DNA from: Olsenella sp. An285
GTDB lineage: Bacteria; Actinomycetota; Coriobacteriia; Coriobacteriales; Atopobiaceae
Assembly: GCF_002159625.1 (NCBI RefSeq)
Contig: NZ_NFIZ01000015.1
Span: 1 to 55,161, forward strand
Length of the DNA stretch: 55,161 nt
Direction: 5' to 3'
The notes under the pieces are model-generated. The model was not told the origin of the DNA and searched no databases. It worked only from the letters and a program-made list of their open reading frames with translations. This document shows, piece after piece, positions 19,157 to 42,502 of this stretch; positions within the stretch are counted from its first letter, which is position 1, and every line of letters begins with the position of its first letter. The position numbers were made by a program, and so were the translations under genes.

Positions 19157-19291
19157 CTAGACGGTGAGACGCTTGCGACCCTTGGCACGACGACGGGCCA
19201 GGACGGCGCGGCCGCCCTTGGTGGCCATGCGGGCACGGAAGCCGTGCGTGGTGGCGCGCTTGCGCTTGTTGGGCTGATACGTACGCTTCAT
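19157..19291 (-). CDS. rpmH: 50S ribosomal protein L34
   Basis: This 44-residue, very basic protein begins [18 protein letters not shown] and ends GRKRLTV, as in nearly all L34 proteins. It is first of the minus-strand run and marks the strand switch at the origin. An in-frame extension upstream is rejected because the conserved N-terminus begins at this ATG. Confidence 0.98.
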
Positions 19292-19617
19292 AGCTATTCC
19301 TCCCGGTTGGGTATGAACGTCCTTTAGAGCAATAAGCTCAGAGATTGTAAGCATCTTGCCGCTGACCTGTCAATTTTTCCTCATAAGAATCACCCCAAAA
19401 ACCTGTGCTTCTTCGTTCGCGGCGCTGAAATCATTTGAATCCAACTTTCCATATACGTGAAAGATGCGTTCCGAATGCTATGATTTTCTGGCACCGTTCA
19501 ATGCGATGCACCTGTTTTCGACATGTTTTTGTCGTCTGTTGAAAACTTTCTTTCACAACGAATTCTCACTGAAAAGTTTTCTTCATCTGTTCAGCGAGTG
19601 TAGAAAAGGGGGTCGCG
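19292..19617. other. Divergent region left of the origin, with DnaA-box-like 9-mers
   Basis: This AT-richer gap lies between rpmH and the ATPase gene. It carries TTTTCGACA at 19515-19523 and its near-mirror TGTTGAAAA at 19537-19545. The same two 9-mer types recur before dnaA and between dnaA and dnaN. Promoters for both directions must lie here, but no consensus -35/-10 pair stands out. Confidence 0.45.
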
Positions 19618-20610
19618 GTGCCGAGGGACTTCTATCCCTTCGTGGAGGAGGGGGGCGACGAGGCCCCCGGGCAGCTCGAAGTCTCCCACCCGGCCCGCGT
19701 GGCCGTCTACGACGACGCGGCGGCGGCGCCGAGGGTCGTGGTCGTGGAGCCCAAGGGCGTGCGCGAGTACCTCGAGGAGATAACGGCCACCGTGAGCTCC
19801 CTCTCGCGCGAGCAGGGCGGGTCCATCCCCTTCATGGTCATCCGCGAGATAGTGGAGAACTTCGTCCACGCCTACTTCCAGGCGCCCACCATCAGCATCC
19901 TCGACGGCGGCAACACGATCCGCTTCTCCGACCAGGGACCCGGCATACGCGAGAAGGACCTCGCGCTCGAGTACGGCACCTCCTCGGCGACGGAGGAGAT
20001 GAAGCGCTACATCCGCGGCGTGGGGAGCGGACTTCCCTACGTGCAGCAATATATGGAGGGCAAGGGCGGGAGCCTCTCCGTCGAGGACAACATCTCGGGC
20101 GGCACCGTGGTTACCATCTCCACGCGCCCGGCTGACGAGGCGCCCGTGCGCTCCGAGGCGGCCGCGCCGGCGGCCCAGCCCCAGCAGCGGGCCCCGTGGC
20201 CGCAGCCCCAGCAGGCGCCGTACGGCTGGGGGCAGCCCGCGGCGGTGGCGCAGCCCTGGCAGCAGGCGGCCGCGCAGCCGTGGCCGCAGGCGCCCCAGCA
20301 GCAGGCGCCCCAGCAGCAGGTGCCCTACCAGGCGCAGCCGGGCGCGTGGGGAGCGCCCGCCCAGGCAGCCCAGCCGCCCGCGGCGCCAGCCTTCCCGCAG
20401 GTCAGCCTCAGCGAGCGCGGCCGCCTGGCACTCCTGCTCTCGCTCGAGCGGGGGAGCGTGGGTCCCACCGACCTCGTCCAGGCCTACGGATCGTCGGCCG
20501 CCACGTGGTCGCGCGAGCTCTCCTCCCTCGCCGCACTGGGCGCCGTCCTCAAGGCGGGCCAGAAGTATCGTCCCACCGAGTACGGGAGGGCGCTCGGCGG
20601 GCTTCTCTGA
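19618..20610 (+). CDS. GHKL-type ATPase with Pro/Gln linker and C-terminal winged helix
   Basis: This 330-residue protein is not a known replication factor. Residues about 45-165 form a GHKL ATPase: N-box EIVENFVHA, G1 box DQGPGI, then GVGSGLPYVQQYME and GGTVVTI. There is no HisKA dimerisation helix or receiver domain, so it resembles SpoIIAB/RsbW-type ATPases rather than a standard sensor kinase. About 80 residues rich in Pro, Gln and Ala follow. The C-terminus (about 260-330, RLALLLSLERGSVGPTDLVQ...KYRPTEYGRALGGLL) looks like a winged helix. GTG start. It lies 56 bp before dnaA, with DnaA-box-like sites on both sides. A regulator of initiation or of dnaA expression is inference. Confidence 0.75.
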   Translation: MPRDFYPFVEEGGDEAPGQLEVSHPARVAVYDDAAAAPRVVVVEPKGVREYLEEITATVSSLSREQGGSIPFMVIREIVENFVHAYFQAPTISILDGGNTIRFSDQGPGIREKDLALEYGTSSATEEMKRYIRGVGSGLPYVQQYMEGKGGSLSVEDNISGGTVVTISTRPADEAPVRSEAAAPAAQPQQRAPWPQPQQAPYGWGQPAAVAQPWQQAAAQPWPQAPQQQAPQQQVPYQAQPGAWGAPAQAAQPPAAPAFPQVSLSERGRLALLLSLERGSVGPTDLVQAYGSSAATWSRELSSLAALGAVLKAGQKYRPTEYGRALGGLL

Positions 20611-20666
20611 TGCCGGGTTATCAACAATCGCTATACTAGGTCCCGCTGTTTTCAACAAACGAGAAT
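20611..20666 (+). promoter_or_regulatory. dnaA upstream region with DnaA-box-like sites
   Basis: TTATCAACA at 20618-20626 is one mismatch from the classical box, and TTTTCAACA lies at 20649-20657. A -10-like TATACT lies between them at 20632-20637. DnaA could therefore occlude its own promoter, as in other bacteria. Confidence 0.55.
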
Positions 20667-22238
20667 GTGGGACCCATGGAACTCTCCCTCGAATCAGACG
20701 CCGAGGCCCTGTGGCAGGACACGCTCGACCTTCTCGCCGCCCAGGCGAAGGTGCCCGAGTCCGTGCTCGCCATGCTCCGCAACTGCACCCCCACGAGCAT
20801 GGAGGGCGGGGTCATGCGGCTCGAGACCCCCATGCGCCTCGTGCTCAAGACCGTCTCCAAGAACGCCGCCGTGGTCGAGGAGTGCCTCACGCAGGCCGCC
20901 TTCGAGCCCATGAGGCTCGAGGTGAGCTTTGCTCCGGGGGCGGCCGCGGCCCCGAGGGCCCAGTCCCCGAGCTCGAGCATGTCGCGCGAGGAGGTGGCCG
21001 CCTGGACGGCCGAGACCTCGCAGGTCGCGGCGCCGGTAGCGCCAGCGCCGCGGAGCATCGTCGAGGACACCTGGGACGAGCGACGCGCTGACGCGCGCGA
21101 CGAGGAGCTCCGCCGCCGGCGCGAGAGGAACCCCCTCGTGGAGGACATATCCCCGGCGACCTCCAAGCTCACCTTCGAGCGCTTCGTCCGCGGAGACGAG
21201 AACGACATCGCCTACCAGGCCGCCCTCCAGGTGGCCAACGGCATGAACAGCACGTACAACCCCCTCTTCATCTACGGGAAGAGCGGCCTGGGCAAGACGC
21301 ACCTGCTGCGCGCCGTCCAGAACTACATCGCCCGCAACGACCCGTCGCGCCTCTGCGTCTACCGTGACGCCTCGACCTTCATCACCGAGTACACCGAGGC
21401 CATGCGCCACTCGGAGCGCTCCGCCGCCTCCGTCCTGCGACAGAACTACGCGGACATCGACGTCCTCATCATCGACGACATCCAGAAGATGGCGGGCAAG
21501 GCCGGCACCGTCGGCTTCTTCTTCGACACCTTCAACGAGCTCGTGAGCAACGGCAAGCAGATCGTGCTCGCGGCCGACCGCACGCCGGCCCAGCTGGGCA
21601 TGGGCAAGGACGGCTTCGACGAGCGCGTGACGAGCCGCCTGGGCTCGGGCTTCACCACGCCCATCCAGGTGCCGAGCTACGAGCTCAAGCTCCGCCTCAT
21701 AGAGACCTTCTGCGAGCGCATGCGCGAGGACGCGGAGCGGGAGAACGTGCCCGCCCTCTCCGGCACCATCCCGCCCGAGGCCGTGAGCTACATGGCCGAG
21801 CTCGCCGGGACCAACATCCGCCTCATCGAGGGCTACTGCCAGCGCTGCCTCTTCGCCGCGACGTCCGCCGAGGGGCGCGGCTCGGAGATCTCGCGCGAGG
21901 AGATAGCCTCGCTCGCGCGCGAGTGCTGGCCGAGCACCATGAGGACGGTCTCCATAGAGGACGTGCAGAAGGCCGTCGAGAAGTACTACGACATAGACCA
22001 CGCGAGCCTCGTGGGCAACAAGCGGCACAAGGGACTCATGGAGGCGCGGCACGTGGCCATCTGGCTCTCGCGCGAGCTCTGCGACCGCACGCTCGCCGAC
22101 ATCGGCCAGCACTTCGGCGGGCGCAGCCACGCCACGGTCATGCACAGCATCAGCGTGGTGGACGAGGCCAAGCGCGACGACAAGGTCTTCTACGACCGCC
22201 TCACGCAGATCCGCGACTCCATCACGGGGAACTCGTGA
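20667..22238 (+). CDS. dnaA: Chromosomal replication initiator DnaA
   Basis: This 523-residue initiator has a domain I with EALWQDTLDLLAAQ, a variable linker, an AAA+ domain with YGKSGLGKTH (Walker A, about 210) and VLIIDDIQ (Walker B), and a C-terminal DNA-binding domain. In the recognition helix the usual FGGRDHTTV reads FGGRSHATV: two positions that contact the DnaA box in E. coli (Asp433 and Thr435) are Ser and Ala. This fits the altered 9-mers around the gene. The start is uncertain between GTG 20667 and ATG 20676; neither has a strong Shine-Dalgarno. Confidence 0.96.
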   Translation: MGPMELSLESDAEALWQDTLDLLAAQAKVPESVLAMLRNCTPTSMEGGVMRLETPMRLVLKTVSKNAAVVEECLTQAAFEPMRLEVSFAPGAAAAPRAQSPSSSMSREEVAAWTAETSQVAAPVAPAPRSIVEDTWDERRADARDEELRRRRERNPLVEDISPATSKLTFERFVRGDENDIAYQAALQVANGMNSTYNPLFIYGKSGLGKTHLLRAVQNYIARNDPSRLCVYRDASTFITEYTEAMRHSERSAASVLRQNYADIDVLIIDDIQKMAGKAGTVGFFFDTFNELVSNGKQIVLAADRTPAQLGMGKDGFDERVTSRLGSGFTTPIQVPSYELKLRLIETFCERMREDAERENVPALSGTIPPEAVSYMAELAGTNIRLIEGYCQRCLFAATSAEGRGSEISREEIASLARECWPSTMRTVSIEDVQKAVEKYYDIDHASLVGNKRHKGLMEARHVAIWLSRELCDRTLADIGQHFGGRSHATVMHSISVVDEAKRDDKVFYDRLTQIRDSITGNS

Positions 22239-22474
22239 GTGTAGAGAACCCTGTCGAGAGCGTGTGGCAACGCGGAGAAAAGCGGCCGATCGTTGTAGAG
22301 AGACTTTTCGACAGACCCGGAGGTGTTGACGGATGTTGATTGTGACGCGCTCGCCGGAGCAGAAGACGCACCCGCTCTCACCTCGTTCTTCTCGTGGTTT
22401 TTGACTTTTCGACAGACCCTATTACTACTGCTGTTCCTATATATCTATCTAAGTACAAAGAGAAAGGGCCGCAC
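22239..22474. other. oriC: Probable oriC, dnaA-dnaN intergenic region
   Basis: TTTTCGACA occurs twice (22305-22313 and 22406-22414), and a weaker inverted TGTCGAGAG lies at 22252-22260. An AT-rich run follows at about 22415-22465 (TATTACTACTGC, TATATATCTATC) and could be the unwinding element. Position between dnaA and dnaN next to the strand switch is the classical origin site. The exact origin cannot be proven by reading. Confidence 0.6.
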
Positions 22475-23575
22475 ATGAAGTTCACCGTCAGCCAGTCCTC
22501 CCTCATGAAGGCCCTCGCCGTGGTGGCCAAGGGGATGGGCACCAACTCCACGCTCCCCATCCTCGCGGGCGTCTACGTCCGCGCGCAGGAGGGCACGCTC
22601 GAGTTCCAGACGAACAACCTCACCATCTCCATCCGCCACCTCATCCCCGCGAACGTGGAGGAGCCGGGCGAGACCGTGATCTCCGGCAAGGTCATCACCA
22701 ACATCGTGAAGACCCTGCCCGACGCCGCCGTCACCTTCGAGGGGTCCGACCGCACCCTCATGGTCTCCTGCGACAAGTCCACCTTCCGTCTCAACACGCT
22801 GAACCCCGCCGATTGGCCCGCCTTCCCGGACCTCACTCCCGACCGTACGATCGAGCTCCCGACCGAGCTCCTCTCGCGCATGGTGGACAAGGTCTACAAG
22901 GTGACCTCCAAGGAGACCTCCCGCCCCATCCTCCAGGGCATCCTGCTCACCGTCGAGGACAACACCATCCGCCTGGTTGCCACGGACTCCTTCCGCCTTG
23001 CCGTGTGTGACTCCTCCACGGAGGCCCCGGCGGGCGAGCGCTTCCGCGCCATCGTGGGCGGCTCGGTCTTCCACGACGTCCTCACCATGCCCTCCTCGTC
23101 CGACACCATCCAAATTGGCACCACGGAGAGCCAGGTGGTCTTCACCTTTGGCAACACGACCTTCGTGGCGCGCCGCATCGAGGGCAACTTCCCGGACTAC
23201 AAGCAGCTCCTGCCGCCCAGCTGCGCCACGGCGGTGACGCTCGACGTCGCGGAGTTCTCCGCGGCGCTCAAGCGCGTCTCCGTGATCGCGCTCCAGAACG
23301 CCTCCGTGCGCTTTGACATCGACGCGGCGGCGGGCCTCATGCGCCTCTCCGCGAGCTCTCCCGAGCAGGGCGAGTCCTCCGAGCTCCTCCCCGTTCAGGT
23401 GGAGGGCCAGGACCTCTCCATCGCACTCAACTACCACTACGTGTTCGACTGCGTGAACGCGGTCTCCGGTGCCGACGCCATGCGCCTCGAGCTCCAGGGC
23501 TCCGTGCAGCCGGGCATCTTCAAGTGCAACGGCAAGGTGAACTACCTCTACCTGCTCATGCCCGTCCGCCTCTAG
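22475..23575 (+). CDS. dnaN: DNA polymerase III beta sliding clamp
   Basis: This 366-residue clamp has three repeated domains beginning MKFTVSQSSLMKALAVV, and encircles DNA to tether polymerase. The family hallmarks LPILAGVYV, KETSRPILQGILL and the C-terminal YLLMPVRL are present. The start at MKFTV is the family norm; an in-frame extension through the AT-rich oriC tail is rejected. recF follows 12 bp later. Confidence 0.98.
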   Translation: MKFTVSQSSLMKALAVVAKGMGTNSTLPILAGVYVRAQEGTLEFQTNNLTISIRHLIPANVEEPGETVISGKVITNIVKTLPDAAVTFEGSDRTLMVSCDKSTFRLNTLNPADWPAFPDLTPDRTIELPTELLSRMVDKVYKVTSKETSRPILQGILLTVEDNTIRLVATDSFRLAVCDSSTEAPAGERFRAIVGGSVFHDVLTMPSSSDTIQIGTTESQVVFTFGNTTFVARRIEGNFPDYKQLLPPSCATAVTLDVAEFSAALKRVSVIALQNASVRFDIDAAAGLMRLSASSPEQGESSELLPVQVEGQDLSIALNYHYVFDCVNAVSGADAMRLELQGSVQPGIFKCNGKVNYLYLLMPVRL

Positions 23576-40760: not shown

Positions 40761-41113
40761 ATAGAGATTCAAACTAGGTAATCTACCTGCGGTTTTGTAA
40801 CTGGTATCAGATTCTCGACCCTGTGTCGCACGTGTGTTTGGGGTCTCAAGAGACCGCGAGTTGATGTTGAAAACCCGACGTTTCCGCAGAAGATAAATTT
40901 GTTGAAAACGTCGAAAAGGAAGAAATCCCCGGTCAGGCGCCGTCTATTCTTAACACAAGCCAAAAAGAGGAAACGGCCTCAAAAATGACCCCTTGACAAG
41001 TCCCGGCCAGACGTTTTGGGCCTTCACCGTCCTTCTCGGCCCCTCCGCGCCGAGCCCGCGGGCGGCGGGCGCGTGCCATAATTGCCCCACAGGAACGCGT
41101 GCGAGGAGATACC
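40761..41113. promoter_or_regulatory. dnaB upstream gap with DnaA-box-like 9-mers
   Basis: No gene is present. TGTTGAAAA occurs at 40865-40873 and 40900-40908, and CGTCGAAAA at 40909-40917. CGACGTTT (40876-40883) and AAACGTCG (40906-40913) form an inverted repeat. A -10-like CATAAT lies at 41077-41082. The 9-mers match those near dnaA, so DnaA control of dnaB is possible. Confidence 0.4.
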
Positions 41114-42502
41114 GTGGCACAGAGCAGCTATGACGTGAACCCCACGAGGATGACGGCCAACGAGAACGCTGTCATGCCGCAGGACCCCGAGGCCGAGGCC
41201 TCCGTCCTCTCGGCGATGATGGTCTCCTCCGAGGCCCTTCAGGAGTGCCTCATCGAGCTCGAGCCGGAGGACTTCTACTTCCCCTCCAACCGCACGGTCT
41301 ACGTGGCCATGCGCGAGATGTTCGACAAGAACATGCCCATCGACACCATCTCCCTGGCGGACTACCTCAAGTCCACGGGAGAGCTCGAGCGCGTGGGCGG
41401 GCGCAGCTTCCTTTTGGGCCTGGGCAACAACTCGCTTGCGCTCGTGGGCTGGCGCCGCCACGTGGAGATGCTCCACCGAGACACCACCCTGCGCAAGATG
41501 ATCAGCGCCTCGGCGCAGATCACCGCGCTCGCCTACGACGCCCCCGAGGACACCAAGGAGGTCGTGGACCGTGCCGAGCGCATGCTTCTGGACGTCACCA
41601 ACCGCGACGTCCACAAGAACGAGCAGTCGCTCGAGGAGATCATGGCGGACCTCTACGAGGAGCTCGGCCAGAACGCCGCCAACCACGAGGGGCCCCTTGG
41701 CGTCATGACCGGCTTCCCCAGGATCGACGAGTGCCTCCTAGGCCTGCGCCCCGGACAGATGGTGGTCATCGGCGCCCGCCCGGGCGTGGGCAAGACCTCC
41801 TTCGCCCTCAACCTCATGACCAACGCCGCCTTCAACGGCGCGAGCGTGGCCATGTTCTCCCTCGAGATGTCCAAGGTGGAGATCGCGCAGCGTCTCCTTG
41901 CCGCCAACGCGCGCGTGGGCCTGCAGGAGATCCGCTCCGCCCGCATCAGGAACGAGCAGTGGCCGCAGATCCTCCAGGCCACCAACGACCTCTCCCAGCT
42001 GGACATCATGATCGACGACACCCCCGGCACCACGGTGACGGAGATTCGCGCCAAGGCCCGGCGCATCCTGCGTGGCAAGAAGCTCGGCCTCGTGATCATC
42101 GACTACCTGCAGCTCATCTCCCCGCCCTCCGGCGGCCACCGCGCGGACAGCCGCGCCACCGAGGTCTCCGAGATGAGCCGCGGCATCAAGATCATGGCCA
42201 AGGACCTGGAGGTTCCGGTGGTGGCGCTCTCGCAGCTCAACCGTACCGTCGAGAACCGCACGGGCAAGCGCCCCCAGCTCTCCGACCTGCGCGAGTCCGG
42301 CTCCATCGAGCAGGACGCGGACATCGTCGCCCTGCTGGACCGCTCCATGAACGAGGACGAGGCCGCGCGCGACGACCGCCCGGACATGAACGAGACCACG
42401 TTCATCATCGCCAAGAACCGCTCCGGCGCCCTCGCGGACATCCCGCTCACCTTCCTCCCCGGCTCGACCAAGTTCGTCGAGGTGGACACCTTCCACGACT
42501 AG
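41114..42502 (+). CDS. dnaB: Replicative DNA helicase DnaB
   Basis: This 462-residue hexameric 5'-3' helicase has the N-terminal DnaB domain (PQDPEAEASVLSAMM), a linker and the RecA-like domain with Walker A GARPGVGKTS (about 215), FSLEMSK, and Walker B VIIDYLQLI. DRSMNEDE and the C-terminal GSTKFVE-type end are family features. No intein is present. The GTG start is preceded by GAGGAGATACC. The likely loader in this organism is the DciA-like protein after recF. Confidence 0.97.
   Translation: MAQSSYDVNPTRMTANENAVMPQDPEAEASVLSAMMVSSEALQECLIELEPEDFYFPSNRTVYVAMREMFDKNMPIDTISLADYLKSTGELERVGGRSFLLGLGNNSLALVGWRRHVEMLHRDTTLRKMISASAQITALAYDAPEDTKEVVDRAERMLLDVTNRDVHKNEQSLEEIMADLYEELGQNAANHEGPLGVMTGFPRIDECLLGLRPGQMVVIGARPGVGKTSFALNLMTNAAFNGASVAMFSLEMSKVEIAQRLLAANARVGLQEIRSARIRNEQWPQILQATNDLSQLDIMIDDTPGTTVTEIRAKARRILRGKKLGLVIIDYLQLISPPSGGHRADSRATEVSEMSRGIKIMAKDLEVPVVALSQLNRTVENRTGKRPQLSDLRESGSIEQDADIVALLDRSMNEDEAARDDRPDMNETTFIIAKNRSGALADIPLTFLPGSTKFVEVDTFHD

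Follow-up and report, generated by a model that had tools for sequence, protein, structure and literature searches.

Covariation of DnaA residue 433 with the sixth base of candidate DnaA boxes in Atopobiaceae

The dnaA locus of Olsenella sp. An285

The window (the whole stretch of DNA analysed, 55,161 nucleotides from Olsenella sp. An285) is one contig of a 2.41-Mb genome in 33 contigs and includes the gene order rpmH-like ORF, HATPase-domain ORF, dnaA, dnaN, and recF-like ORF. We take the minus-strand ORF at 19157–19354 to be rpmH-like. The HATPase-domain ORF, located between it and dnaA, has a long Pro/Gln/Ala-rich stretch. The features of the region are as follows:

19515..19523, plus strand: DnaA-box-like TTTTCGACA, upstream of dnaA in the gap separating the rpmH-like and HATPase-domain ORFs
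19537..19545, minus strand: DnaA-box-like TTTTCAACA, from a pattern search
19599..19607, minus strand: DnaA-box-like TTTTCTACA, from a pattern search; absent from the list in the first-pass annotation
19618..20610: HATPase-domain ORF (Pfam HATPase domain)
20618..20626, plus strand: DnaA-box-like TTATCAACA, just upstream of dnaA
20649..20657, plus strand: DnaA-box-like TTTTCAACA, just upstream of dnaA
20676..22238, plus strand: dnaA (replication initiator), ATG at 20676, in-frame GTG at 20667, stop at 22236–22238
22113..22139, plus strand: recognition-helix motif FGGRSHATV, from the sequence and the alignment to E. coli 1J1V
22305..22313, plus strand: DnaA-box-like TTTTCGACA, from a pattern search
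22406..22414, plus strand: trio-proximal DnaA-box-like TTTTCGACA, 4 nt before the trios
22419..22433, plus strand: DnaA-trio-like array CTA TTA CTA CTG CTG (complement, 3'-GAT-5' repeats), from the sequence and similar arrays in relatives
22475..23575, plus strand: dnaN (sliding clamp), which fixes the origin gene order

A Pfam search with the window DnaA, translated from the GTG at 20667, revealed an AAA+ domain (PF00308, Bac_DnaA; E 4.8e-47, 160.6 bits, cut-off 23) and a C-terminal helix-turn-helix domain (PF08299, Bac_DnaA_C; E 4.5e-22, 78.3 bits, cut-off 31.5). The helix-turn-helix could be aligned to 1J1V, in which the Ser codon at 22125–22127 corresponds to E. coli Asp433 and the Ala codon at 22131–22133 to Thr435; the presence of FGGRSHATV in place of FGGRDHTTV, described in the first-pass annotation, was confirmed. 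The numbering D433/H434/T435 is that of a passage of PMC7561715. According to passages of PMC5742627 and PMC5043019, respectively, the recognition helix (434–451) reads 5'-TnCACA-3', and residues 432–435 are among the base-specific ones. Domain IV of the window DnaA is 98% identical to its counterpart in an uncultured member of the Atopobiaceae, followed by those of Olsenella and Thermophilibacter, both of which are classified in the Atopobiaceae, Coriobacteriales, Coriobacteriia.

Pattern searches reproduced all the box positions reported earlier, namely TTTTCGACA at 19515, 22305 and 22406, TTTTCAACA at 19537 and 20649, and TTATCAACA at 20618. The pattern TTTTCRACA has 7 matches in the window, while 100 dinucleotide shuffles averaged 0.17 matches and never exceeded 2. 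The whole-genome count, which had been suggested as a possible refutation, revealed a concentration at the origin: 5 of 17 matches lie within 19515–22414, the 3 kb around dnaA. The pattern read backwards has 5 matches genome-wide. With base 6 left free (TTWTCNACA), a hand count of the genome gave 34 sites (A13 G14 C5 T2). None of the 7 TTWTCNACA sites at 19515–22414 has the C of the canonical TTWTNCACA box at base 6; the other fixed columns, TTWT..ACA, agree with the canonical box, these being columns that the search pattern fixes and that were freed singly in one comparison.

The layout at 22406–22433, a candidate box a few nucleotides before an array of 3'-GAT-5' trios, appears to be that of a basal unwinding region. 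Two tandem boxes precede the trios (22395–22414); the distance between their starts seems to be about 8 nt in Atopobiaceae (f1) and in f2, and about 9 nt in f3 and in other orders, as judged by eye in some rows. The boxes at 20618 and 20649, which are 31 nt apart, flank TATACT just upstream of dnaA. Paired boxes occur upstream of dnaA in 3 relatives (G170, G188 and G195) at 31, 32 and 30 nt, respectively, a spacing that would be as expected for dnaA self-repression. GC skew was rejected as proof of the origin, since it was weak and mixed both in the window profile and in twenty samples of 20 kb taken from the complete chromosome of a relative (L451–L470); the origin was therefore placed by dnaA–dnaN and the trio-like repeats instead. 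The third codon positions of the 4 genes checked have more C than G, and this excess may cause the local negative skew.

Residue 433 and base 6 across Coriobacteriia

We compared 273 Coriobacteriia genomes, leaving out rows L175–L180 (duplicates) and L254 (G242, with a stop inside the domain); one earlier filtering left out the duplicates plus L077 and L172. Residue 433 is Ser, Thr, Lys or Val in 133/133 Atopobiaceae genomes and Asp (117) or Asn (23) in all 140 genomes of the other families. By residue, there are 117 genomes with Asp (65 genera), 90 with Ser, 37 with Thr, 5 with Lys, 23 with Asn, and 1 with Val. The altered helix and altered boxes first described in this one genome were seen in all 133 Atopobiaceae genomes analysed. 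A large clade of f3, a sister family that is probably Coriobacteriaceae, has Asn433 plus further unusual helix residues (FGNRNHSTVSTSYKKV; clade f3.g33, rows L260, L261–L276 and L280).

A scan of genome contigs for the peptide IGx[HKR]FGGR[STK]H gave 147 stretches, 126 of them from relatives; the 80 listed of these 126 had Olsenella-, Thermophilibacter-, Atopobi-, Coriobacteri- or broader actinobacterial titles, including one “bacterium OL-1”. In the best 30 loci of a phylum search, Ser/Thr/Lys was found in 10 Atopobiaceae loci and Asp in 11 others, with no motif detected in 9. These two scans would be compatible with Ser/Thr/Lys433 in other phyla as well.

Exact TTWTCNACA sites were scanned in the 400 nt downstream of dnaA in the 273 genomes, and the trio-proximal box was compared separately, one per genome. 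The base 6 counts are as follows:

Asp433: downstream of dnaA, A40 C54 G2 T2; trio-proximal, C36 A19 G2 T1
Ser433: downstream of dnaA, A23 C10 G43 T30; trio-proximal, G40 T23 A12 C2
Thr433: downstream of dnaA, A3 C2 G11 T6; trio-proximal, A12 T10 G1
Lys433: downstream of dnaA, A2 T3; trio-proximal, A3 G1 T1
Asn433: downstream of dnaA, A25 C1 G1; trio-proximal, G3 A1
Val433: downstream of dnaA, T1; trio-proximal, T1
Ser/Thr/Lys433 pooled: trio-proximal, G42 T34 A27 C2

Dinucleotide shuffles of 253 genomes gave at most 1.4 sites per residue/base cell. The exact C total for Asp433 is 54 with 117 genomes, 53 with 114 genomes, and 52 when end sites are skipped. C occupies base 6 in 12/133 downstream sites of the Ser/Thr/Lys433 genomes and is still tolerated with Ser433 (10/106 boxes). 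Weighting by genus gave frequencies of A.345, C.595, G.023 and T.037 for Asp (36 genera with a site) versus A.211, C.123, G.363 and T.303 for Ser/Thr/Lys (25 genera). The mean G+T fraction is 0.060 in the 36 Asp genera and 0.667 in the 25 Ser/Thr/Lys genera (Mann–Whitney p 3e-9), and the C fraction differs as well (p 1e-4), both p values being uncorrected for the relatedness of the genera. When one column was freed at a time, the majority base was equal in the Asp and Ser/Thr/Lys classes at the other 8 positions, which points to column 6 as the one whose allowed bases changed.

The trio-proximal box was defined by its position 3–6 nt ahead of trio-like repeats of the CTATTACTACTACTG type, with base 6 kept out of the scoring. 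A counterpart above threshold was found in 168/253 genomes; this set predates rows L261–L280 and so includes only 4 Asn433 genomes. The exceptions are 3 Asp433 genomes with G or T (G120, G024 and G311) and 2 Ser433 genomes with C (G281 and G098). In the window's genus, the variants of this box include TTTTCGACA, TTTTCTACA, TTTTTGACA, and TTATCCACA. Compared with Asp genomes, the Ser/Thr/Lys genomes are stricter at positions 1–3 and 9 and looser at position 5.

The alignment of DnaA domain IV and origin 9-mers proposed in the first-pass annotation therefore bears out, in 273 genomes, that protein and box covary and that the sixth column is the one involved. The loss of C at base 6 also stood. 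The proposed switch from C to G/A did not, because Asp433 genomes also use A (A40 versus C54), so that A is no signature, and T was gained as well. The signature of the altered helix is the gain of G and T and the loss of C, and base 6 in Ser/Thr/Lys433 genomes is a relaxed set (A/G/T) rather than a switch to one base.

Boxes upstream of dnaB, and the number of independent changes

A second cluster of candidate boxes, also missing from the first-pass list, lies upstream of a helicase gene, and TTTTCRACA matches its sites at 40865 and 40900:

40865..40873, minus strand: DnaA-box-like TTTTCAACA, upstream of the dnaB-like ORF
40900..40908, minus strand: DnaA-box-like TTTTCAACA, upstream of the dnaB-like ORF, 35 nt from the 40865 site
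40909..40917, minus strand: DnaA-box-like TTTTCGACG (one mismatch), 9 nt from the 40900 site
41099..42502, plus strand: dnaB-like replicative helicase ORF, alternative GTG start at 41114; named by reading the translation

In the window's genus, 31 genomes matched and the dnaB start could be located in 27/30 loci. The 500 nt upstream contain exact sites in 23 of the 27 loci, with base 6 counts of A37 G8 T1 C0; with one mismatch allowed, the 27 loci gave A47 G37 T26 C0. For f3, the comparison used 30 loci from a search of 59 genomes. In the f3 cluster, the successive distances are about 33, 9 and about 39 nt, similar to those in the window's genus. The 18 Asp433 loci of f3 gave C27 A11 T1 at exact sites, and 17 of them have sites at one mismatch (L435 has none). 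Among the 12 Asn433 loci of f3, 2 have the cluster (G225 and G094; exact A3 G1 over the class), it was not found in 9, and L444 was too short to scan. Nine genomes of the f3.g33 clade with the unusual helix were scanned upstream of dnaB, and the box cluster was not found.

The base 6 pattern at dnaB agrees with that at the dnaA locus. The cluster (40865–40917 in the window; L391–L420 and L421–L440 in relatives) suggests that DnaA either regulates the helicase gene or is titrated there. In 4 genomes of the window's genus (G000, G170, G188 and G195), with origin and dnaB sites assigned by hand, C occurs at 1/36 origin and dnaB sites versus 26/108 sites elsewhere (Fisher p 0.0029). C is therefore rare at these loci yet commoner elsewhere in the same genomes, and the base composition of the genome as a whole does not account for its scarcity there.

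Several other helix residues were considered as the cause. The first-pass annotation had tied changes at Asp433 and Thr435 together to the box; residue 433 does track base 6, but residue 435 alone does not, in the few genomes that separate the two. Ser433 with Thr435 (SHT; 5 genomes of one genus) has G5 at base 6, and Asp433 with Ala435 (DHA; 4 genomes) has A2 C2, and residue 435 was rejected on these small numbers. Residue 423 also differs in Atopobiaceae, being Ala in 115/132 Ser/Thr/Lys genomes. The 6 genomes with Asp433 and Ala423 have A3 C1, and T and G are still present in Ser/Thr/Lys433 genomes with another residue at 423, which would weakly separate 423 from 433 as the driver. Within the Ser/Thr/Lys class, genomes with Lys438 and Met438 are alike (mostly G/T/A). 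Residues 423, 438 and 439 were rejected on these comparisons, again on small numbers.

In a DnaA tree from which the last 62 residues were left out (271/273 proteins, 258 with both traits), there are 6 changes between Asp and non-Asp, and 4 pairs lie on branches with support. On average, 3.3 of these 4 pairs show the box changing in the same direction as the residue and 0.0 show the opposite; the sign test (median p 0.25) falls short of significance because the independent changes are few. Under a two-class coding, the unexpected class comprises 24/105 Asp and 11/153 non-Asp genomes, the coding being a crude one (G and T together no fewer than C, with one mismatch permitted). The f3 Asn433 genomes are the main replicate, but not a clean one. 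Near-identical f3 profiles were merged leaving out three one-mismatch words (22 Asn433 genomes to 6 profiles, 34 Asp433 genomes to 32); with one mismatch allowed, the merged profiles gave A17 G10 T2 C5 for Asn433 and C66 A53 T7 G8 for Asp433. Asn433 genomes outside f3.g33 are mixed at one mismatch: G378 has A5 G1, G080 has A2 C2, and G282 (f2) has A1 C1 T1. Most other Asn433 genomes belong to a single clade whose helix has additional changes. Because the dnaB locus was sampled in these same families, it does not count as a separate evolutionary event.

A proposed reading of base 6 by residue 433

We consider it likely that Atopobiaceae DnaA, with Ser, Thr or Lys instead of Asp at position 433, uses boxes that differ at base 6 and that residue 433 reads this base. 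Base 6 is A or C with Asp433; G, T or A with Ser/Thr/Lys433, with C disfavoured; and A, then G, with Asn433. The association between base and residue points to a contact of residue 433 with base 6, and the TTTTCRACA-like candidate sites are presumably bound by DnaA. It looks as though a start signal that is almost universal is read differently here through a natural change of one residue.

In the major groove, A and C expose an amino group; an acceptor is exposed by G, T and A but not by C. Asp is a hydrogen-bond acceptor only; Ser, Thr, Lys and Asn can donate. Asp433 would need an amino group and hence A or C, while Ser, Thr, Lys or Asn at 433 could form hydrogen bonds to the acceptors on G, T and A. 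C has no acceptor on that strand and would be disfavoured with donor residues. This chemistry matches the sets seen in the genomes (A/C; A then G; G/T/A). On this mechanism, domain IV of the Ser433 DnaA of Olsenella and Thermophilibacter would favour TTTTCGACA and TTTTCTACA over TTTTCCACA.

The same pattern could have arisen if the loss of Asp433 simply ended the reading of base 6 and the boxes then drifted without any new preference. The trio-proximal boxes of the window's genus, in which base 6 varies (G, T and C) and most other columns hold, are what such drift would leave behind. Drift in GC-rich genomes should, however, give C about as often, whereas C is found at 12/133 sites downstream of dnaA and at 0/46 exact and 0/110 one-mismatch sites upstream of dnaB, and it reaches 26/108 elsewhere against 1/36 at the origin and dnaB in the same 4 genomes. 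C that is scarce at dnaA and dnaB and commoner elsewhere argues for its avoidance, and we regard drift without a new preference as unlikely. The view that an origin-binding protein other than DnaA owns the TTTTCRACA-like sites draws on the fact that their assignment to DnaA was made from sequence. This is highly improbable: the trio-proximal site, 3–6 nt ahead of a DnaA-trio-like array, occupies the position of the TTATCCACA-like boxes in Asp433 relatives; the remaining box columns are shared; and the sites upstream of dnaA and dnaB are similarly spaced in relatives.

Helix and boxes might instead have changed once, at the base of the Atopobiaceae, with no causal link or through a residue such as 423. 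All 133 Atopobiaceae genomes are non-Asp, as one main event would give (6 Asp/non-Asp changes overall), and residue 423 differs in this family too. On the other hand, the f3 Asn433 genomes also have less C and more G, the Asn433 genomes G225 and G094 have G or A at dnaB where related Asp433 genomes mostly have C, and column 6 is the one with changed allowed bases; shared ancestry alone is accordingly quite unlikely. Returning to the reading of base 6 by residue 433, we lean modestly towards a general code (Asp, A/C; Asn, A/G; Ser/Thr/Lys, anything but C) that would hold wherever residue 433 varies and under which the Atopobiaceae boxes at the origin, dnaA and dnaB would be poor sites for a standard DnaA. 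Under such a code, the chromosome origin, the dnaA promoter region and the dnaB upstream region of one family would run on such boxes.

The window DnaA has the same PF00308 plus PF08299 architecture as the canonical systems of E. coli, B. subtilis and M. tuberculosis with the TTWTNCACA box. It also resembles them in having a box beside trio-like repeats in the dnaA–dnaN gap and boxes upstream of dnaA; it differs in Ser rather than Asp at 433 and in A/G/T at base 6. All the high-affinity nine-letter boxes in table 1 of the review PMC4285127 have C at position 6. In Epsilonproteobacteria, as described in PMC5043019, the beginning of the DnaA recognition helix and the box core (5'-TTCAC-3') have likewise both changed throughout the class. 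There, however, the special base is T5, positions 435 and 438–439 are named as the variable ones, and the 433–434 pair is called highly conserved. T5 occurs in 7/105 trio-proximal Ser/Thr/Lys boxes, and the window's box has C5. PMC5043019 also reports that A is tolerated in place of C6, and that there was no binding to a box carrying G6 and A5 (data not shown there); both statements are in line with the pattern of the Asp433 genomes. In Thermotoga maritima, according to passages of PMC7561715 and PMC4285127, DnaA likewise has altered recognition residues and an altered site, but the 12-letter boxes differ widely in length and sequence (AAACCTACCACC), whereas Atopobiaceae keep nine letters and mainly one column moves.

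A link between residue 433 and base 6 was not found in the titles and abstract openings of a limited open-licence literature. In the open-licence literature, no DnaA boxes of Olsenella were found, and the one paper that mentions both DnaA boxes and Coriobacteri deals with other organisms in its relevant passages. A changed helix together with a changed box was already known from Epsilonproteobacteria and Thermotoga, and the variant that involves residue 433 and base 6 appears to be new.

The DnaA box is among the most conserved bacterial signals, and its family-wide rewriting, linked to a single reading residue, is a natural specificity experiment that offers a route to initiator–origin pairs without cross-talk. 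The finding suggests that searches with the standard box would undercount sites in Atopobiaceae, and that a protein–DNA contact, even an essential one, can shift at numerous positions within a single genome.
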